Source: Xenophilus sp. Marseille-Q4582
GTDB taxonomy: Bacteria > Pseudomonadota > Gammaproteobacteria > Burkholderiales > Burkholderiaceae_C
Assembly (NCBI RefSeq): GCF_916700565.1
Contig: NZ_CAKAKO010000001.1
Location: forward strand, 558,001-622,000
Reading direction: 5' to 3'
Length of the DNA stretch: 64,000 nt
Shown: positions 17,166 through 26,820 of the stretch, one piece after another
How positions within the stretch are numbered: position 1 is the first letter of the stretch
Layout: each line of letters opens with the position of its first letter
Notes under the pieces: model-generated
What the model was told of the DNA's origin: nothing
Database searches by the model: none
The model's input: only the letters and a program-made list of their open reading frames with translations
Translations under genes and position numbers: made by a program

Positions 17166-17678
17166 CTACTCGCCGGTCGCGCGCCGCTCGGCCTTGTACA
17201 GCTTCTGCAGCAGCGTGCGCAGCGTGCCGCGTTCGCGCTCGGTCAGGGCGTCCGCGGCCTCGCTCTCCAGCTCGATCACGACCTTCTCGGTCTCCTGCGC
17301 TAGCGCCAGGCCGGCGGGCGTGAGGTGCAGGCCGATGGCGCGACCGTCGCGCGGATGCGGGTGGCGCTCGATCAGGCCGCGCCGGTCCAGCGCCGAGATC
17401 AGGCTGACCAGGTTGGGCGGCAGGATGTCCAGCGTGGCGCACAGCTGGCGCGAGGTGGCGCCGGGGTTGTGCGCCAGCAGCGCCAGCACCGAATACTCGA
17501 CCTGCTTGAGGCCGTAGGGCGCCATGCGCTCGAAGAACAGCGCGCTGATGCTGCTGTAGGCGCGGCGCGCGTTGTAGCCGATCAGGGCTTCGAGCGTGCC
17601 GGTGTCCAGGCGCTCGGGGGCGGGCAGTGGAGCGGCTGGGGGCGGTGCGGAAGGCTTCTTGCGGGGGGCGGCAGGCAT
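17166..17678 (-). CDS. MarR-family regulator, probable hydroxycinnamate-responsive repressor
   Basis: 170-aa winged-helix dimer. The core is '[20 protein letters not shown]', the recognition helix region '[19 protein letters not shown]' and the wing '[17 protein letters not shown]'. ATG 17678 is preferred because it lies 7 bp beyond the stop of the upstream dehydrogenase; ATG 17723 would add 15 residues overlapping it. As the last gene of the hydroxycinnamate operon it is the natural regulator. HcaR, CouR and FerC/FerR are MarR proteins that release DNA on binding hydroxycinnamoyl-CoA thioesters. The palindrome at 25869-25887 is its likely operator. Confidence 0.88.
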
Positions 17679-17685
17679 CGTCCGG

Positions 17686-19422
17686 TCATTGTCGCGCGAG
17701 GACCGGGCGGGTCTTTTCCGCATGGGCGCTCAGGGTCCCCTCGGCGGCGCGCTTGACCATGCCCAGGCGCATCTCGAACTCCGGCAGCGCCCAGCGGCGG
17801 AAGGCCGTGGCGGGCCGGCTCCAGCGCAGCTCGTCGGCCGCCACGCCTTCGATGCGCGCCCAGGCCCAGGCCATCAGGCCCAGCATCACGGCACGCAGGA
17901 AGTCGTCGGCCACCTCGCAGGGCAGTCGCGGGTCGGCCTGCGCCGCCATCGCCACGCTGGTGCCCAGGTAGCGCAGCTGCGCCAGGCGGCGCTGCGCATC
18001 GGCGTCCGCCTCGCGCGAGGCGTCCAGCTCGTCGCGCAGCTCCAGCGCCACCGCCGACAGGGCGGCGCCGCTGTCGGGCAGCACCTTGCGCACCAGCAGA
18101 TCGATGGCCTGGATCTCGTTGGTGCCCTCGTAGATCATGGCCACGCGCGCGTCGCGCACATGCTGCTCGATGCCCCATTCGCGCACGTAGCCGTGGCCGC
18201 CGAAGACCTGCAGGCAGGCGCTGGCGCCCTCGAAGCCCTGCTGCGTGCAGGCCGCCTTGAGCACCGGCGTGACCAGCGCGCACCAGCGCTGCGCGCGTTC
18301 GCGCGCCTTCGGGTCCTGGGCATGGCGCGCCAGATCCAGCTGCACGCCGGTGCGGTAAGCCAGCAGGCGCGCGCCGTCGATCCAGGCGCGTTGCGTGTCC
18401 AAAATGCGCGCGATGACCGGGTGCTCGGCGATGTAGCTGGGCCCGGGCCCCGTCGCGCCGGGCGCCCTCATCTGCTGGCGTTCGCGCGCATAGGCCTCTG
18501 CCTTCTGCCAGGCGGCGTCCAGCAGGCCGATGCCCTGCAGCGCCACATGCAGGCGCGCGGCATTCATCATCACGAACATGGCGTTCAGGCCCTTGCCGGG
18601 CTCACCGACCCGCCAGCCCGTGGCCTCGTCGAAGCGCAGCACGCAGGTGGGGCTGCCGTGCAGGCCCATCTTCTCTTCGATGCGCTCGCAGTGGATGGCG
18701 TTGCGCGTGCCGTCAGGCAGCACCTTGGGCGCCAGCACCAGCGACAGGCCCTTGGGGCCTTCGGGCGCGTCGGGCAAACGGCACAGCACCAGGTGCACGA
18801 TGTTGTCCGTCAGGTCGTGCTCGCCGCCCGAGATGAAGATCTTGCCGCCCGTGAGGCGCACGCTGCCATCGGCCTGTGGCGTGGCGCGCGTGCGCACGCG
18901 GCCCAGGTCGCTGCCCGCATGCGCCTCGGTCAGCGCCATGGTGGCCAGCCATTCGCCGGTCGCGATCTTGCCCAGGTAGCGCGCCTTCAGCTCCTCGCTG
19001 CCGTGGTGCTTCAGGCATTCATACGCGCCGTGCAGCAGGCCGGGCGCCATGGTCCAGCCGTGATTGGCGGCCGACAGCCATTCGTAGAGCACGGCTTCCA
19101 GCACCGCGGGAAGGCCCTGGCCGCCGTCTTCGACCGCGGCCGAGAGCGCGGGCCAGCCGGCGTGCCGGAAGGCTTGGTAGGCCTCTTTGAAACCCGGCGG
19201 CGAGAGGACGGCGCCGGCCTCGAAGCGGCAGCCGATCTCGTCGCCCGAGCGGTTCAGCGGCGCGATCACCTCGGCCACGAACTTGCCCGCTTCCTCCAGC
19301 ACCTGCCGCGCCAGCGCCGCGTCCGTCTCGGCGAAGGCGGGCAGGGCCTGCCACTGCGCACTGCCGCCCAGCACGGTGTCGATCAGGAACAGCGAGTCGT
19401 CGGGGCGCGGGGCGTAGTCCAT
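17686..19422 (-). CDS. Long-form acyl-CoA dehydrogenase
   Basis: 578-aa FAD-dependent acyl-CoA dehydrogenase with a C-terminal extension beyond the usual 380 aa, as in the DmdC/FadE-like long class. Visible features are 'TMALTEAHAGSDLG' (FAD/substrate loop), 'KIFISGGEHDLTDNIVHLVL', and the catalytic-base region 'MIYEGTNEIQAIDLLVRK'. In this operon a plausible role is oxidising dihydrocinnamoyl-type (phenylpropanoyl) CoA esters to cinnamoyl-CoAs, feeding the hydratase; this is inference from context. It lies between the esterase gene (30-bp gap) and marR on the same strand. Confidence 0.85.
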   Translation of the reverse strand: MDYAPRPDDSLFLIDTVLGGSAQWQALPAFAETDAALARQVLEEAGKFVAEVIAPLNRSGDEIGCRFEAGAVLSPPGFKEAYQAFRHAGWPALSAAVEDGGQGLPAVLEAVLYEWLSAANHGWTMAPGLLHGAYECLKHHGSEELKARYLGKIATGEWLATMALTEAHAGSDLGRVRTRATPQADGSVRLTGGKIFISGGEHDLTDNIVHLVLCRLPDAPEGPKGLSLVLAPKVLPDGTRNAIHCERIEEKMGLHGSPTCVLRFDEATGWRVGEPGKGLNAMFVMMNAARLHVALQGIGLLDAAWQKAEAYARERQQMRAPGATGPGPSYIAEHPVIARILDTQRAWIDGARLLAYRTGVQLDLARHAQDPKARERAQRWCALVTPVLKAACTQQGFEGASACLQVFGGHGYVREWGIEQHVRDARVAMIYEGTNEIQAIDLLVRKVLPDSGAALSAVALELRDELDASREADADAQRRLAQLRYLGTSVAMAAQADPRLPCEVADDFLRAVMLGLMAWAWARIEGVAADELRWSRPATAFRRWALPEFEMRLGMVKRAAEGTLSAHAEKTRPVLARQ

Positions 19423-19452
19423 GGGAGACGGGAAGAAGGCAACAAGAGGAGG

Positions 19453-21180
19453 TCAGGAGGCGCTGCAGACGAAACTGCCGGCCTGTTCGGGGTCGCCGCC
19501 ACGGTAGCGCGCCACGGCGGGCCAGGCGCACAGCGGGCGGCTGCGCGTGGGCGACCAGGCGGCCGGCACTTCGGGGTTCGGGCTGGCGGTGCCGGCGCCG
19601 CGCGCGCGGGCCGTCACGGCATCGGGCGCCACGCCGCGCTCGACCCAGTCGACCAGTGGGGTCAGCAGATCGAACTGGTCGGTGGACGGGCCGCCGCGGC
19701 AATGGTTCATGGCCGGCACCGGGAAGTAGCGCACGAAGGCGGCGGCGCTGCCGCGGTGCGAGGCGTTCAGCGTCTCCCACCAGCGGGCCGTGTCGTCTGA
19801 AGAGAACACGCCGTCCGCGGTGCCGTGGTACACGATCATGCGCGCACCGCGCTCGCGCAGCGGCGACAGATCTCCGGCCGGTGGCAGCATGAAGGACAGG
19901 GCCGATTCGGTGTAGGGGCCGCTCGTGGCGCCGATCGTGGGTACGTCGCGGTCCAGGTCGAAGCCCAACGCGAAGGGCAGGCCCTGCGCGCGCTCGTGCA
20001 GCGGCGGCGTGCTGAAGATGAAGGCCACGGCCGCTGCGTCGCGCGTGCCCGGCGCCGCGAATTTCCAGCTGCGCCAGTCCTCGCCCGTGATCCCGGGGTC
20101 AAACGGGAAGCTGCTGTAGATGGGCTGCCCGGCGCTGTTGCGCGCGCCGGCGAAGACGCGCGCCAGCGCCTGCTTTTGCGCGGGCGCCAGGCAGGCGCCG
20201 CTGCTTGCTGCACCGGGGGCACAAGCCGGCACATCGCGTTCCACATCGAACTGCGCCTGGCAGGCCTTCACGTCGCTCACGATGCCGTCGGCCAGGCCGT
20301 CCAGCGCGTCGCAGCGCGCCGACACCTTCTGAGAGACCAGCATCAGTTGCTCACGCGTGAACGCGGTCTGCAGATCCGGCTGGCCCTGCGGCGTGCGGCC
20401 CGTGGCCAGCGGCGCCCATTGCTGCGCACCCCAGAGCTGCGCCACGGCGGCGCGCGGCAGGTTGAAGCCGGGGTTGCCGGCCAGCACGCCGTCATATTCG
20501 CCGGGCAGGCGCGACGCGGCCACCATGGCGTGGCGGCCGCCGTTGGAGCAGCCGCCGATGTAGGAGCGGTCCGGCCCGCGCCCGTAGGCGCTGGCGATCA
20601 GTTGCTTGGCCACGGGCGTGAGCTGCGTCACGGCGCCGTAGCCGTAGTCGATGCGCGCCTGCGGGTCCAGCCCGAAGCGCGGGTTCTGCGCACCCGTGTG
20701 GCCGGCGTCGGAGCTGACCACGGCAAAGCCCTGCTGCAGGGCCGTGTGCGTGGGCGCCCCGCCGCCGATGCTGCCCATGGCCGGCACCACCGCGCCGTCG
20801 AGCCCGCCGTTGACCTGGTGGAAGAAGCGGCCGTTCCAGGCCTGGGGCAGGCGCAGCTCGAAGCCGATGGCATAGCGCTGGCCATCGACCGGGCTGGTGC
20901 GCTCGTTGAGCTGGCCCTGCACCAGGCAATGCGCGGGTACCGCCGGGGTGGGGCCGGCGGCCGGCGCGGCGGCCACGGCTTCGGCGCGTGTGAGCCGCGT
21001 GCCCGCGGGCAGCGCGCCACGGGCCAGCGTTTCACACTGCTGCAGCGCGCCGGGGCGGGCGGCGGCCAGGGGCGGCGCGGAAGCACCGGGTGGGCTGCTG
21101 CCGCAGGCACCGAGCAACGCCGTGAAGGCGAGGAGGGCGCCCGCGCGGGCGGGCGTGCTGAGGCCGTGTCGTGCGCGCAT
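19453..21180 (-). CDS. Tannase/feruloyl-esterase family lipoprotein
   Basis: 575-aa serine esterase of the tannase/feruloyl esterase family (PF07519). ATG 21180 gives a lipoprotein signal with lipobox 'LLGAC' near residue 25, so it is probably outer-membrane anchored. The nucleophile is in 'IGGCSNGGRHAM' (CSxGG, whose Cys normally pairs with the Cys beside the catalytic His); Asp is in 'YHGTADGVFSSDD' and His in 'MNHCRGG'. Extra cysteines in the lid match the calcium-binding region of the family. It would cleave feruloyl, p-coumaroyl or chlorogenate-type esters outside the cytoplasm, feeding the CoA pathway encoded around it. Confidence 0.9.
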   Translation of the reverse strand: MRARHGLSTPARAGALLAFTALLGACGSSPPGASAPPLAAARPGALQQCETLARGALPAGTRLTRAEAVAAAPAAGPTPAVPAHCLVQGQLNERTSPVDGQRYAIGFELRLPQAWNGRFFHQVNGGLDGAVVPAMGSIGGGAPTHTALQQGFAVVSSDAGHTGAQNPRFGLDPQARIDYGYGAVTQLTPVAKQLIASAYGRGPDRSYIGGCSNGGRHAMVAASRLPGEYDGVLAGNPGFNLPRAAVAQLWGAQQWAPLATGRTPQGQPDLQTAFTREQLMLVSQKVSARCDALDGLADGIVSDVKACQAQFDVERDVPACAPGAASSGACLAPAQKQALARVFAGARNSAGQPIYSSFPFDPGITGEDWRSWKFAAPGTRDAAAVAFIFSTPPLHERAQGLPFALGFDLDRDVPTIGATSGPYTESALSFMLPPAGDLSPLRERGARMIVYHGTADGVFSSDDTARWWETLNASHRGSAAAFVRYFPVPAMNHCRGGPSTDQFDLLTPLVDWVERGVAPDAVTARARGAGTASPNPEVPAAWSPTRSRPLCAWPAVARYRGGDPEQAGSFVCSAS

Positions 21181-21236
21181 GGAAGGCTCGGCTTGCGGGC
21201 GGGTGGACGTGTGGGCGTGTGTGGGCAATCCGCCGA

Positions 21237-22226
21237 TCAGGACTCGGCCGTGAATCCGATCTGCTTGACCAGCGGCCCCCAGCGCTCGAACTCGGCCTTC
21301 TGGTCGGCCGCCATCTCCTGCGGCGTGCTGCCGTGCGCCACCAGGCCCACCAGTGCCAGCGAGTCGATCACCGTCTTGTCCTTGAGGGCGGCGGTGATGG
21401 CGGCATTGGCGTTGGCCAGCGTGGCGGCGGGCGTCTTGGCCGGCGCATAGAAGCCGAACCATTCTTCCGAGGTCACGTCCGGGTAGCCCAGTTCCGTGAA
21501 GGTCGGCACGTCGGGCAGGTAGGGCGAGCGCTTCTTGCCCGAGGTGGCGAGCACGCGCACGCGGCCGCTCTTCATGTACTGCAGGTAGTCGCCGCTCGGG
21601 TTCATCGCGGCGGCGATCTGGCCGCCCACCAGGTCGGTGATGCTGGGCACCGTGCCGCGGTAGGGCACGTGCTTGAGATCGACGCCCGAGCGGATGCCCA
21701 GCAGCGCGCCCAGCAGGTGCGGCATGGAGCCGGCACCGGGCGAGCCGTAGCTCGCCTGGCCCGGGTTGGCCTTGGCCCAGGCCAGGAAGTCCTTGAGCGT
21801 CTTCACCTCGGCCGGCACGGCCGGGCCCACCGCCAGGCCGTGGAACATGATGGCGCCGATGGACACCTGCGTCACGTCTTCGGGCTTGTAGCTGAGCTTG
21901 GGATAGATGTAGGGATACACCGCCAGCGCCGACACCGGCGCCAGGGTCAGCACCGAGCCGTCGGCGGGCGAATTCTTGAGCGTTTCCACCGCGATGCGGC
22001 CGCCCGCGCCGGGCTTGTTCTCGACGAAGCCCGGGTTCTTGCTGTAGGCCGTGCCGCCGATCTTCTCGGCCACGCGGCGCGCCACGCTGTCGCCCGCGCT
22101 GCCGGCCGGAAAGCCGTACATGATCTTGACCTGGTCCAGCGCCTGCGCGAGCGCCGACAGCGGCGAGAGCGCCGCCAGTGCGGCCGCGCCGCCCAGCGTG
22201 TTCAGGAATTGACGACGGTGTTGCAT
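21237..22226 (-). CDS. Bug/TctC-family substrate-binding protein
   Basis: 329-aa periplasmic binding protein with a signal peptide containing paired arginines ('MQHRRQFLNTLGGAAALAAL'), possibly Tat-type, cleaved near ALA/QA. Bug features include 'KIMYGFPAGSAGDSVARR', 'VENKPGAGGRIAVETLK', 'WAKANPGQASYGSPGAGS', 'HVPYRGTVPSITDLVGGQI' and 'LPDVPTFTELGYPDV'. It is located inside the hydroxycinnamate operon without TctA/TctB, so an aromatic acid ligand is a reasonable guess. Partner permease not in the window. Confidence 0.92.
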   Translation of the reverse strand: MQHRRQFLNTLGGAAALAALSPLSALAQALDQVKIMYGFPAGSAGDSVARRVAEKIGGTAYSKNPGFVENKPGAGGRIAVETLKNSPADGSVLTLAPVSALAVYPYIYPKLSYKPEDVTQVSIGAIMFHGLAVGPAVPAEVKTLKDFLAWAKANPGQASYGSPGAGSMPHLLGALLGIRSGVDLKHVPYRGTVPSITDLVGGQIAAAMNPSGDYLQYMKSGRVRVLATSGKKRSPYLPDVPTFTELGYPDVTSEEWFGFYAPAKTPAATLANANAAITAALKDKTVIDSLALVGLVAHGSTPQEMAADQKAEFERWGPLVKQIGFTAES

Positions 22227-22278
22227 GGCATGTCTCCTGGTGGGGTTTGGTTGGCGTCGAGGAAGGAAGCGAAGCGGC

Positions 22279-23052
22279 TCAGCGCGCAGCCATGCGCAGG
22301 GCGCCGTCGAGGCGGATCACCTCGCCGTTGAGATGGCCGTTGCTGACGATGTGGCAGGCCAGCTCGGCGAACTCCGAGGGCTTGCCCAGTCGCGGCGGGA
22401 AGGGAATGGACGCGGCCAGCGACTGCTGCACGGGCTCGGGCAGCTCCAGCAGCAGCGGCGTGGCGAAGATGCCGGGGGCCACCGTGCACACGCGGATGCC
22501 GTGCTGCGCGAGGTCGCGCGCCATCGGCAGCGTCATGCCGGCCAGGCCGGCCTTGGACGCGCTGTAGGCCTGCTGGCCCACCTGGCCGTCGAAGGCCGCG
22601 ACCGAGGCGGTGAACATCATCACGCCGCGGCCTTCGCCATCGTCGCCTTCCAGCGGCGCCAGCTTGGCGCAGCGCGCCGCGAACAGCCGGCTCACGTTGT
22701 ACGTGCCGATCAGGTTGATCTGGATCACGCGCGCGAAGTCCTCCAGCGGGGCCGCGCTGCCGTCCTTTCCCACGATGCGCTTGGCCGAGCCGATGCCCGC
22801 CACGTTCATCAGGATGCGCGCCGGGCCGTGCGCGGCCTCGGCACCGGCCAGCGCGGCTTCCACGCTGGCGGTGTCGGTGATGTCGCAGGCGAAGGAAACG
22901 CCGCCGATGTCGGCTGCCACCTTCGCGGCCAGCTCGGCGTTGCGGTCCAGCACGGCGACCTTCGCGCCTTGGCGCGCCAGTTCGCGTGCCGTGGCCTCGC
23001 CCAGGCCCGATGCGCCGCCCGTGACCAGCGCGGCCTGTCCTTGGATCTTCAT
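22279..23052 (-). CDS. SDR 3-hydroxyacyl-CoA dehydrogenase (HSD10-like)
   Basis: 257-aa classical short-chain dehydrogenase. The NAD motif is 'ALVTGGASGLGEAT', followed by 'LMNVAGIG', Ser in 'MMFTASVAAFDG' and the catalytic 'YSASKAGLAG'. It resembles type-2 3-hydroxyacyl-CoA dehydrogenases. In the Agrobacterium hydroxycinnamate cluster an SDR oxidises the 4-hydroxyphenyl-beta-hydroxypropionyl-CoA intermediate to the beta-keto form, and the same step is proposed here. It lies just downstream of the CoA ligase on the same strand. Confidence 0.88.
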   Translation of the reverse strand: MKIQGQAALVTGGASGLGEATARELARQGAKVAVLDRNAELAAKVAADIGGVSFACDITDTASVEAALAGAEAAHGPARILMNVAGIGSAKRIVGKDGSAAPLEDFARVIQINLIGTYNVSRLFAARCAKLAPLEGDDGEGRGVMMFTASVAAFDGQVGQQAYSASKAGLAGMTLPMARDLAQHGIRVCTVAPGIFATPLLLELPEPVQQSLAASIPFPPRLGKPSEFAELACHIVSNGHLNGEVIRLDGALRMAAR

Positions 23053-23106
23053 GGTGCGTCTCTCCTGTTCAGTGCAGTTCGTGCGATGCGGTCGAGGCGG
23101 GGGGCC

Positions 23107-25029
23107 TCAGTTCCATTGCGGCTTGAGCGTGAAGGGCAGCGTGTCGCCGTGCAGCGCCTGCACGAAGGCATCGCGGTGCTTGAGCACGGCGCGCTGGTTG
23201 ATCGAGCCCTTGTCCGTGACCTCGCCCTTGTCGATCGACGGCGGCTCGGCCACCAGCACGGCGCGCGCGACGCGGTTGGCGCTGCCCGTGGCATCGGCCG
23301 CCAGGCGGTCGATCACGGTCTGGAAATGCGCCTGCACGGGGGCGCTCTGCAGCACCTCGGCCCAGGGGGCATCGGCGGGCAGCCGCGCCAGTTCGCGCAC
23401 CGCCTGGGTCGGGAAGATCAGGGCGCCCACTTCCTTCATGTTCAGGCCCGTGAGCACCACGTCCTGCACATAGGGTGCGCCGAAGGACGTGACCTTGGCG
23501 CGCAGCGGCCCCACGCTCACGAAGGTGCCGGTGGTCAGCTTGAAGTCCTCGGCGATGCGACCATCGAAGCGCAGGCCCAGGTGCAGGTTGTCCGGGTCCA
23601 TCCAGCACACGGCGTCGCCGGTCAGGAAGAAGCCTTCCTCGTCGAAGGACTCGTGCGTGGCCTCGGGCATGCGCCAGTAGCCGGGCGTGACGTTGGGGCC
23701 GCGGTAGCGGATCTCGGTCTTGCCGTCCGCGGGCACCAGCTTGATCTCCAGGCCGGCGGCCGGCAGGCCCAACTCGCCGGCGACCATGTCAGGGCGCGTG
23801 ACGTTGAGCGCGAAGGGCGACGATTCGGTCATGCCCAGGCCGGTGCCCATCACGATGCGTTCGCCCACCTCGGCCTCGGCCAGGCGGTACAGCTTGTCCA
23901 GCACGCCCGGCGGCAGGGCGGCGCCGGCGTAGTAGAAGAGCTGGCAGCGCGCCAGCAGCTGGCGGCGCAGCACCGGGTCCTGCTCCATGGCGTCGGCAAT
24001 CGCCTCGAAGCCGGTGGGCACGTTGAAGTAGATCGTGGGCGAGATCTCGCGCAGGTTGCGCAGCGTCTCGCCGATGCCGGCCGGCGTGGGCTTGCCCTCG
24101 TCGATGTACAGCGTGCCGCCGTTGTCCAGCACGATGCCGATGTTGTGGTTGCCGCCGAAGGTGTGGTTCCAGGGCAGCCAGTCGACCAGCACCGGCCCGC
24201 AGCCGTCTTCCAGCCGCGCGCTCAGCGGCGGCAGGCTGCAGCGCAGCTGCTGCTGGTTGGCGCACCACATGCGGTGGTTGTTGATCACCGCTTTCGGGTT
24301 CTTGGTCGAGCCCGAGGTGAACAGGAACTTGGTGATGGTGCCCGGGTGCACGCGCTGCATGGCCTCGTCCACGGCATGCGTGGCGCGCGTGGCCCGCAGC
24401 GCGGCCAGCGGCGTGGTGGCGCGGCCTTCCAGCGTGCCGCTGCCCATCACCACCGGCACCTCGGGCGGCACCGTGGCCGCGATGGCGGGACCGAAGCGCG
24501 CATCGGCCGCGAACACCAGCCCCGGCGTCAGCGTCTGCATCACGTGGCGCAGCTTCTCGTAGTCCTTGCTGACCAGCGCATAGGGCGTGGAGACGGGGCA
24601 GTGCGGCACGCCGATCAGCAGGCAGCCGAAGGCCACCAGCGCGTGGTCCAGGCTGTTCTCGGCGAGGATCGCCACCGGCCGCTCCTCGGACAGGTCGTGG
24701 CTCAGCAGGGCCTGGGCGATGCAACGCGCCTGGGCCAGGAACTGGCTGTAGCTCAGGTGGATCCAGTCGCCGCGGCTGCCGTCGGGCAGGCGTTCGCGCT
24801 GGGCCATGAAGGTGCGGTTCGGCGCGACGGCGGCCCAGTGCACCAGCCGGTCGTTCATGCGGTGGGCGTAGGGGGGCAGCTCCGGCTCGGACCGGAGGTA
24901 CTGGACCCCGTTGGCGCCCTCGCGCAGCACGCCGCGCGTGATGCCGTAGATGGCGGCCGGGTTGGCGGCGCGGTATCTGGGCGCAGCAGCGCCCCGGCTG
25001 CTGTCGGCAGCCTTGTCGGTTTGCGTCAT
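23107..25029 (-). CDS. fcs: Feruloyl-CoA / hydroxycinnamoyl-CoA synthetase
   Basis: 640-aa AMP-forming ligase activating ferulate, p-coumarate or caffeate to the CoA thioester. The adenylate motif is 'KFLFTSGSTKNPKAVINN'; further motifs are 'LVDWLPWNHTFGGNHN', 'GTGLGMTESSPFA' and 'FFLTGDAVCW...FDGRIAEDFKL'. The long N-terminus with 'HRMNDRLVHWAAVAPNRTFMAQR' is typical of the bacterial feruloyl-CoA synthase class. It sits between the hydratase and the SDR in the same operon. The exact aryl substrate range is not readable from sequence. Confidence 0.9.
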   Translation of the reverse strand: MTQTDKAADSSRGAAAPRYRAANPAAIYGITRGVLREGANGVQYLRSEPELPPYAHRMNDRLVHWAAVAPNRTFMAQRERLPDGSRGDWIHLSYSQFLAQARCIAQALLSHDLSEERPVAILAENSLDHALVAFGCLLIGVPHCPVSTPYALVSKDYEKLRHVMQTLTPGLVFAADARFGPAIAATVPPEVPVVMGSGTLEGRATTPLAALRATRATHAVDEAMQRVHPGTITKFLFTSGSTKNPKAVINNHRMWCANQQQLRCSLPPLSARLEDGCGPVLVDWLPWNHTFGGNHNIGIVLDNGGTLYIDEGKPTPAGIGETLRNLREISPTIYFNVPTGFEAIADAMEQDPVLRRQLLARCQLFYYAGAALPPGVLDKLYRLAEAEVGERIVMGTGLGMTESSPFALNVTRPDMVAGELGLPAAGLEIKLVPADGKTEIRYRGPNVTPGYWRMPEATHESFDEEGFFLTGDAVCWMDPDNLHLGLRFDGRIAEDFKLTTGTFVSVGPLRAKVTSFGAPYVQDVVLTGLNMKEVGALIFPTQAVRELARLPADAPWAEVLQSAPVQAHFQTVIDRLAADATGSANRVARAVLVAEPPSIDKGEVTDKGSINQRAVLKHRDAFVQALHGDTLPFTLKPQWN

Positions 25030-25067
25030 GTCTTCCTCCGGGAAGGGGTGGGGGTCGCTCGGGCTTC

Positions 25068-25841
25068 TCAGTCCCTGGCGACCTTGGCGGCGCGGCCTTC
25101 GAGGAAGGCGCGCACGCGCTCCTTGGCGGCCGGCGCGTCCTGCGCGATGCCGGCCATCAGCGCTTCGGTGAACAGGCCGTGGTCGGCCGGCTGCTCGGCG
25201 ATGCGGGGCAGCGCGTGCATCAGCGCGTAGTTGGTCAGCGGCGCGTTGGTGGCCACGCGCTTGGCGATCTCCACGGCCTTCGCCAGCGCCTGGCCTGGCG
25301 GCACGAGGTACTGCGCGAAGCCGGCGCGCTCGCCTTCCTCGGCCTTGTAGACGCGGCCCGTCATCATCATGTCGGTCATGCGCGCCACGCCGATCAGCTT
25401 GGGAATGCGCACCGAGCCGCCGCCACCCACGAAGATGCCGCGCGAGCCCTCAGGCAGCGCGTAGAAGGTGGTCTCGTCGGCCACGCGGATGTGGCAGGCG
25501 CTGGCCAGCTCCAGCCCGCCGCCCACCACGGCGCCGTGCAGGGCCGCGATGACGGGCACGGTGCCGAACTGCACGCCGTCCAGCGCCTGGTGCCACATGC
25601 GCGAATGCAGCACGCCCTGGCCGGCGTCGCGCTCCTTCAGCTCGGACAGGTCCAGCCCGGCGCAGAAATGCTCGCCCGCGCCGTCGACCACCACCGCGCG
25701 CACGCCCTCGGGCAGGTTCTGGAAGGTGTCGCGCAGCGCGAGGATCAGGCCGTCGTTGAGCGCATTGCGCTTGGCGGCGCGTTCCAGGCGAACGATCGCG
25801 ATGTCGTCCTGGACGGTGAGGGAAAGGTCGGGGTGGGTCAT
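25068..25841 (-). CDS. Enoyl-CoA hydratase/isomerase family protein (hydroxycinnamoyl-CoA hydratase)
   Basis: 257-aa crotonase-fold enzyme, first gene of the leftward operon. 'GEHFCAGLDLSEL' and 'HGAVVGGGLELASACHIRVA' form the CoA pocket and oxyanion hole. 'FYALPEGSRGIFVGGGGSVRIPKLIG' carries the Glu region seen in hydratases. In the neighbouring Fcs context it would hydrate feruloyl-CoA to the beta-hydroxypropionyl-CoA. Since an SDR and a ketoacyl-CoA hydrolase are present, I infer hydratase rather than vanillin-forming aldolase activity. The operator lies 27 bp upstream of its ATG. Confidence 0.85.
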   Translation of the reverse strand: MTHPDLSLTVQDDIAIVRLERAAKRNALNDGLILALRDTFQNLPEGVRAVVVDGAGEHFCAGLDLSELKERDAGQGVLHSRMWHQALDGVQFGTVPVIAALHGAVVGGGLELASACHIRVADETTFYALPEGSRGIFVGGGGSVRIPKLIGVARMTDMMMTGRVYKAEEGERAGFAQYLVPPGQALAKAVEIAKRVATNAPLTNYALMHALPRIAEQPADHGLFTEALMAGIAQDAPAAKERVRAFLEGRAAKVARD

Positions 25842-25864
25842 GATTGCGTCCTGGGGATGAATCG

Positions 25865-25893
25865 ATTATGGTTATGAAAAATAACCAAATCAA
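25865..25893 (-). promoter_or_regulatory. Sigma-70-like promoter of the hydroxycinnamate operon
   Basis: On the minus strand TTGATT (25893-25888) and CATAAT (25870-25865) are separated by exactly 17 bp and precede the hydratase ATG at 25841. The spacer is almost entirely the palindrome annotated separately. Confidence 0.7.
25869..25887. promoter_or_regulatory. Palindromic operator, probable MarR site
   Basis: TGGTTAT-GAAAA-ATAACCA is a perfect 7-bp inverted repeat with 5-bp spacing, 19 bp long. It fills the -35/-10 spacer of the leftward promoter and lies in the divergent region with the amidohydrolase gene. Size and symmetry fit MarR-family operators; repression of both directions is inferred. 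Confidence 0.72.
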
Positions 25894-25956
25894 GGCGGCG
25901 GACAGCCCCGCGATGCCGGTGTTTACCCTAGTCATCAAGCCCACCCGGAGACATCC

Positions 25957-26820
25957 ATGGACTGCTCCCAACTCATCGCCATCGACACGCACACGCATGC
26001 CGAGATCAGCTGCTGGAATCCTTTCGACAACTACGGCGAGGAGTACGACCGCGCGGCCGACAAGTACTTCCGCTCCAGCCGCCGCCCGACCATCCAGGAG
26101 AGCATCGACTACTACCGCGAGCGCAAGATCGGCTTCGTGATGTTCGGGGTGGACAGCGAGTCCAACCTGGGCCGCCGGCGCATTCCGAACGAGGAGATCG
26201 CCGAGGCCGCGCAGAAGAATCCGGACATCATGATCGCGTTCGCCAGCATCGACCCGCACAAGGGCAAGATGGGTGCGCGTGAGGCGCGCCGGCTCATCGA
26301 GGAGCACGGCGTGAAGGGCTTCAAGTTCCATCCCACGGTGCAGGGCTTCCACCCCTACGACAAGATGGCCTGGCCGATCTACGAGGTCATCGCCGAGCAC
26401 AAGCTGCCGGCCATCTTCCACACCGGCCACAGCGGCATCGGCTCGGGCATGCGCTGCGGCGGCGGCCTGCGGCTCGAATACAGCAACCCCATGCACCTGG
26501 ACGACGTGGCGATCGACTTCCCCGACATGCAGATCGTCATGGCGCACCCGAGCTTTCCGTGGCAGGACGAGGCGCTGTCGGTGGCCACGCACAAGCCCAA
26601 CGTCTGGATCGACCTGTCGGGCTGGAGCCCCAAGTACTTCCCCAAGCAGTTGATCCAGTACGCCAACACCCTGCTCAAGGACCGCGTGCTGTTCGCCAGC
26701 GACTGGCCGCTGATCTCGCCCGACCGCTGGTTGAAGGATTCGGAGGAGGCCGGCTTCAAGCCGGAAGTGATGCCCGGCATCCTCAAGGGCAACGCCATGC
26801 GCCTGCTGGGACTGGGCTGA
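25957..26820 (+). CDS. Amidohydrolase-2 family protein, probable aryl beta-ketoacyl-CoA hydrolase
   Basis: 287-aa metal-dependent TIM-barrel hydrolase. Metal ligands are expected in 'AIDTHTHAE' (HxH), 'IFHTGHSG', 'IVMAHPSFPW' and 'LFASDWPLISP' (Asp). ATG 25957 follows CGGAG at a good distance. It is divergent from the CoA ligase operon and shares its regulatory region. In Agrobacterium fabrum an amidohydrolase-family protein of the hydroxycinnamate cluster acts as 4-hydroxyphenyl-beta-ketoacyl-CoA hydrolase, yielding the benzoate-type acid. I assign the same role by context; a decarboxylase of the ACMSD type is the main alternative. Confidence 0.82.
   Translation: MDCSQLIAIDTHTHAEISCWNPFDNYGEEYDRAADKYFRSSRRPTIQESIDYYRERKIGFVMFGVDSESNLGRRRIPNEEIAEAAQKNPDIMIAFASIDPHKGKMGAREARRLIEEHGVKGFKFHPTVQGFHPYDKMAWPIYEVIAEHKLPAIFHTGHSGIGSGMRCGGGLRLEYSNPMHLDDVAIDFPDMQIVMAHPSFPWQDEALSVATHKPNVWIDLSGWSPKYFPKQLIQYANTLLKDRVLFASDWPLISPDRWLKDSEEAGFKPEVMPGILKGNAMRLLGLG

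Follow-up and report, generated by a model that had tools for sequence, protein, structure and literature searches.

Several described gene sets for hydroxycinnamate catabolism resemble the locus analyzed here, which occupies positions 17166..26820 of a 64-kb window (558,001-622,000 of contig NZ_CAKAKO010000001.1, forward strand, assembly GCF_916700565.1) from Xenophilus sp. Marseille-Q4582; the window is the whole of this stretch. In Rhodococcus jostii RHA1, the amidohydrolase CouO is described as the last enzyme of the cou route, yielding the aromatic acid, and the regulator CouR as being released by p-coumaroyl-CoA (PMC4737184). In the SpG8-1b region of Agrobacterium fabrum (Atu1415-Atu1422), Atu1421 is called a beta-keto-thiolase (PMC7797058), and a ferulate proteome table for S. 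scabies contains a hydratase, a ligase, an amidohydrolase and a dehydrogenase/reductase with neighbouring locus numbers (PMC6904314). The ech-vdh-fcs-pcd genes of Pseudomonas fluorescens encode a hydroxycinnamoyl-CoA hydratase/lyase (HCHL), vanillin dehydrogenase and, within the ech operon, an acyl-CoA dehydrogenase for saturated side chains (Pcd) that is required for growth on phloretate (PMC12642758). For the couA/couB/couR genes of Rhodopseudomonas palustris, CouA is described as a hydratase/lyase yielding hydroxybenzaldehydes (PMC7997838, PMC7260809) and the route has been termed non-beta-oxidative (PMC3610893), whereas one review terms it beta-oxidative (PMC10458429). The Xenophilus locus is most likely an operon for hydroxycinnamate catabolism by CoA-dependent beta-oxidative deacetylation, in which ferulate-type plant acids would be shortened to simpler aromatic acids, probably without free vanillin.

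Organization of the locus and proposed pathway

Eight open reading frames lie within the locus, all at or near the positions proposed in a first-pass annotation of the same DNA. Together with a candidate regulatory site they are as follows (SDR, short-chain dehydrogenase/reductase).

25957..26820, plus strand: amidohydrolase (Amidohydro_2), predicted aroylacetyl-CoA (beta-ketoacyl-CoA) hydrolase on the basis of Pfam, synteny, residues and a structural model
25869..25887, no strand: predicted MarR/CouR-type operator TGGTTAT-GAAAA-ATAACCA, an inverted repeat
25068..25841, minus strand: enoyl-CoA hydratase of the PRK08150 type with both hydratase glutamates (416 bits, cut-off 232)
23107..25029, minus strand: feruloyl/coumaroyl-CoA-synthetase-type ligase (PRK12582, 656 bits, below the model's 777-bit cut-off)
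22279..23052, minus strand: SDR, type II 3-hydroxyacyl-CoA dehydrogenase by solved-chain matches and tree placement
21237..22226, minus strand: TctC-type periplasmic solute receptor (PF03401)
19453..21180, minus strand: tannase/feruloyl-esterase family enzyme, MHETase-like, probable lipoprotein (PF07519, 410 bits)
17686..19422, minus strand: acyl-CoA dehydrogenase of 578 residues, predicted phloretyl/dihydroferuloyl-CoA dehydrogenase from family searches, the Pcd precedent and recurrence in related loci
17166..17723, minus strand: MarR regulator, CouR-like (best solved match 6c28)

The minus-strand genes run in the order hydratase, ligase, SDR, TctC receptor, esterase, acyl-CoA dehydrogenase and MarR, with successive gaps of 38, 54, 52, 56 and 30 bp and a 38-bp overlap of the last two. 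Because the gaps are so short (30-56 bp) and the MarR and dehydrogenase genes overlap, these seven genes likely form one predicted operon, from which the amidohydrolase gene diverges across a 115-bp intergenic stretch. The esterase probably starts at 21180 rather than at 21462, with a lipobox-like LLGAC at that start, and is a probable lipoprotein.

In the proposed pathway, the exported tannase-family esterase would free hydroxycinnamates from their esters, with the TctC receptor as a possible substrate-binding partner. Feruloyl-CoA or p-coumaroyl-CoA would be formed by the ligase. Dihydro-acids such as phloretate probably enter at the same CoA intermediates through the acyl-CoA dehydrogenase, a role for which Pcd is a good precedent. 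Following addition of water by the hydratase and oxidation of the 3-hydroxyl by the SDR, the metal-dependent amidohydrolase would cleave aroylacetyl-CoA to vanillate or 4-hydroxybenzoate and acetyl-CoA. The CouR-like MarR protein would repress both divergent transcripts at 25869-25887 until released by a hydroxycinnamoyl-CoA. Genes for use of the pathway products are present in the host genome, namely a VanA-type gene, two PobA genes over cut-off and two LigA-domain genes, and these count in favour of the beta-oxidative reading.

Comparison with described systems

Orthology with the A. fabrum genes was assessed through L107, a locus of Agrobacterium salinitolerans, since A. fabrum is not among the 80 named loci kept of 553; many of these loci end at contig ends, and related loci are not independent. 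L107 carries MarR and amidohydrolase genes, a LigM-type O-demethylase over its cut-off, a GntR/FCD regulator, a hydratase, a ligase, an SDR and an acyl-CoA dehydrogenase, and this content fits the published SpG8-1b order, the MetF-like gene of which lies outside the comparison (PMC7797058). Identities between window and L107 proteins are 60% for the amidohydrolase, which is syntenic in the two, 54% for the SDR, 51% for the hydratase, 45% for the ligase (595 residues) and 37% for the dehydrogenase. By way of L107, the window thus shares with SpG8-1b the ligase, hydratase, SDR, last enzyme (an amidohydrolase by synteny) and MarR repressor, but it has no relative of the L107 O-demethylase or GntR regulator in its 64 kb, adds the esterase and TctC receptor, and has MarR as the last gene of its operon. 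From the syntenic L107 gene we infer that Atu1421 is of the amidohydrolase type. The first-pass annotation had grouped the hydratase, CoA ligase, SDR, MarR regulator and divergent amidohydrolase, with which our family searches agree throughout, and had assigned them to an Agrobacterium-type beta-oxidative gene set; the kinship of the hydratase, ligase, SDR and amidohydrolase to L107, together with the trees, bears this assignment out through A. salinitolerans.

PRK12582 is the best model for the ligase although the score stays under the curated cut-off; the enzyme is homologous to that of L107 and is 51% identical to the ligase beside a CouA-like gene in L191. A tree of 56 crotonases has the window hydratase, L107-type and CouA-type enzymes in one 45-row group (support 100/100) apart from three HCHL, a result to be read with the program's warning of long branches and with the long outgroup branches in mind. 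Moreover, both hydratase glutamates are kept in the window enzyme, and the first of them is lost in the three aligned HCHL, so that tree and residues alike place the hydratase in the SpG8-1b group and not with HCHL.

The solved chains nearest to the SDR include many 3-hydroxyacyl-CoA dehydrogenases. In a midpoint-rooted tree of 55 SDRs (among them 18 SDRs from the host's family, 20 other locus SDRs, L201 and 15 rows that we labelled paralogs), a branch with 97/88 support has 20 rows from the host's family and 17 of the 20 other locus SDRs on one side, and the 15 labelled paralogs with three locus SDRs on the other; L214 (Rhodopseudomonas), one of the labelled paralogs, pairs with a locus SDR. 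The window SDR is by this tree kin to the locus SDRs and groups with those of Rhizobiaceae hydroxycinnamate loci. Recent recruitment from a housekeeping paralog is not favoured by the midpoint-rooted tree.

The last enzyme is an amidohydrolase superfamily member encoded within the cluster. Residues H12, H14, H155, H197 and D249 are invariant in 22 aligned sequences and are placed like metal ligands, which we presume them to be. The predicted structure is a TIM barrel (predicted local distance difference test score 86.8) whose best fold match is 3irs, of unknown function, followed by putative amidohydrolases and by hydroxybenzoate or carboxyvanillate decarboxylases.

With the P. fluorescens genes the locus has in common the ligase, MarR regulator and acyl-CoA dehydrogenase. 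P. fluorescens, however, uses HCHL and vanillin dehydrogenase, whereas the 25 crotonase matches found in the host genome all stay below the 276-bit cut-off of the PRK09120 hydratase/lyase (HCHL) model (best 133.4 bits, window gene 82.4), and a single benzaldehyde dehydrogenase query, used to look for a linked vanillin dehydrogenase and not for unlinked enzymes, has no match in the window at E 1e-5.

Distribution in the host's family

Among 150 genomes sampled from the host's family, the amidohydrolase is present at E <=1e-100 in 59 (62 at 1e-30) and HCHL over cut-off in three, a count for which scoring in most of the genomes shown was confined to the top 15 candidates of a first look. Apart from the host, 58 of these genomes bear the amidohydrolase, and the gene neighbourhood was compared in 40 of them, the majority with higher scores and longer contigs. 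Hydratase and ligase are found in 35 of these 40 loci, the SDR in 26, MarR in 19, TctC in 17, the acyl-CoA dehydrogenase in 14 and the esterase in 10, with all seven genes in four loci and none in five, and the amidohydrolase is divergent from hydratase/ligase in 34 of the 35 loci having both. Given these three proportions (35/40, 34/35, and 26/40 with the SDR), the gene grouping is more than chance. In the 80 named loci, the thresholds used give a hydratase in 61 and an SDR in 41. No description of the gene set in the host's family was found in literature titles and abstract openings, a search outside which most subscription journals lie.

These counts qualify two proposals of the first-pass annotation. 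The distinction that it drew from a common, vanillin-yielding Fcs/Ech pair holds in that no HCHL exceeds the cut-off in the genome, but in this family the type called common is in fact rare. Similarly, the esterase, solute-binding protein and long acyl-CoA dehydrogenase said to expand the set are all present, but the dehydrogenase is shared with other loci, occurring in several from Rhizobiaceae besides the 14 same-family ones.

Operator-like site and regulator

A perfect inverted repeat, TGGTTAT-N5-ATAACCA, lies at 25869-25887 between the divergent genes. It is the sole match in the window at <=3 mismatches (0.05 expected by shuffling) and the sole site in the 5.5-Mb genome at <=2 mismatches, where the reversed control gives none; a wider regulon was set aside because the genome has no second site at this threshold. 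In the 35 divergent regions of the window and 34 same-family loci, the repeat is kept at <=2 mismatches in 21 and at <=3 in 24, compared with a mean of 0.13 for mononucleotide shuffles. Because the pattern was derived from the window before being counted elsewhere, and because the loci are related and not independent, we read this conservation as footprint evidence. The best match of the MarR protein among solved structures is the chain named CouR, 6c28 (E 6.4e-18, next match 7.2e-11), and the RHA1 CouR structures 3fm5 and 5cyv match only at E 1.1e-6. We infer that the CouR-like MarR protein binds the predicted operator at 25869-25887. The RHA1 CouR box is described as an inverted repeat with a 5-bp spacer like that of the window site, but the letters differ (PMC4737184).

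Alternative readings

The alternative that survives best, although we consider it unlikely, is a non-oxidative route in which the CouA-like crotonase would hydrate feruloyl-CoA and then split it into vanillin and acetyl-CoA, vanillate would come from an unlinked aldehyde dehydrogenase, and the SDR and amidohydrolase would serve other substrates. The nearest solved relative of the window hydratase is 3hin (61% over 241 residues), which, like the MarR structure 6c28, we take to be from R. palustris. A Rhodopseudomonas hydratase that matches 3hin at 97.5% identity adjoins a ligase, with a MarR gene further on, and because of this match and these neighbours 3hin is taken by synteny as CouA. In addition, identities of the window ligase and hydratase are higher with the Rhodopseudomonas pair (51% and 60%) than with L107 (45% and 51%), SDR-less loci exist, and the published accounts cited above of CouA as a hydratase/lyase on a non-beta-oxidative route point the same way. 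The linked SDR and amidohydrolase would, however, be superfluous under such a route, and neither gene is present in two Rhodopseudomonas hydratase-ligase stretches, unlike in the window; the R. palustris route is reported to make aldehydes. This comparison is not a clean one because one of those Rhodopseudomonas genomes, the one with the 3hin-like hydratase, carries both genes away from the hydratase, the amidohydrolase in L165 (57%) and the SDR in L214 (59%). Also unfavourable to the non-oxidative route are the review that terms the R. palustris route beta-oxidative and the results for the single benzaldehyde dehydrogenase query, which has no match in the 64-kb window and a relative in just two of the 40 same-family loci.

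Besides the closeness of the hydratase to an enzyme reported to give aldehydes, several observations weigh against beta-oxidative deacetylation. The SDR is absent from nine of 35 hydratase-bearing same-family loci, and seven of the nine genomes concerned hold just a 52-56% paralog that is also present in four of four SDR-bearing control genomes; of the other two, the first carries a 67% SDR elsewhere and the second (89% complete) is without any SDR at E 1e-50. Neither hydratase/ligase nor a carboxylase set is found nearby in the fetched stretches of 28 of 131 amidohydrolase loci, and for this reason the enzyme is not tied to one pathway. Finally, genes for HCHL, an aldehyde dehydrogenase, a ligase and the amidohydrolase stand in a row on a Paraburkholderia plasmid (L034:5623-10891), an apparent hybrid of two routes; among the matches listed, L034 is the sole record common to 40 of 168 HCHL-bearing plasmid records and 40 of 103 amidohydrolase records. 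As proof of beta-oxidation, the amidohydrolase is weakened by L034 and by the 28 loci with neither setting.

The SDR-less arrangement of amidohydrolase, hydratase and ligase is seen in L049, L050, L062, L068, L071, L079 and L081, the genomes of which have just the 52-56% paralog. Loci in which the amidohydrolase has neither setting include L035, L036, L041, L055 and L060. Elsewhere, amidohydrolase relatives accompany biotin-carboxylase-type genes and acetoacetate-CoA ligase (L033:2274-10864, L038:523-10873) or lie near acetoacetate-CoA ligase without the carboxylase set (L077, L111). These few loci suggest that aroylacetyl-CoA would arise in carboxylase-type loci too, with the step being shared with aryl-ketone degradation. 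The link is thin, the carboxylase set being found in two of 133 loci, L033 (five of seven queries) and L038 (the source of the queries).

It is very unlikely that the true substrate is a related aryl-propenoate or aromatic diester in place of ferulate or coumarate, an idea raised by the MHETase-like esterase, for which MHETase is a far closer solved match (E 1.5e-117) than feruloyl esterases are (feruloyl esterase B, E 3.2e-38), and by the several acids taken by a similar four-enzyme set of R. ruber (PMC12753220), but set against a MarR protein closest to CouR, a ligase and hydratase that are kin of hydroxycinnamate genes, and an esterase present in just 10 of the 40 same-family loci. The reading of the hydratase as a Pseudomonas-type HCHL was set aside on account of score, tree and residues.

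Implications

The locus belongs to a known pathway type, and its operon layout is lineage-specific; between its divergent promoters lies one clean candidate for an operator. Published reactions differ among enzymes that fall in one hydratase clade, and this is a testable gap. We think it improbable that the CouA/SpG8-1b-type clade serves two routes, with hydrate or aldehyde formed according to partner genes, and that the core is SDR-optional in some same-family genomes. If the core is SDR-optional, the cleavage module may draw on a housekeeping dehydrogenase, or act on an intermediate other than the one assumed. The textbook enzyme of vanillin formation is over cut-off in 3 of the 150 genomes sampled from the family, where the amidohydrolase-type set, with 59 of 150, is far commoner.

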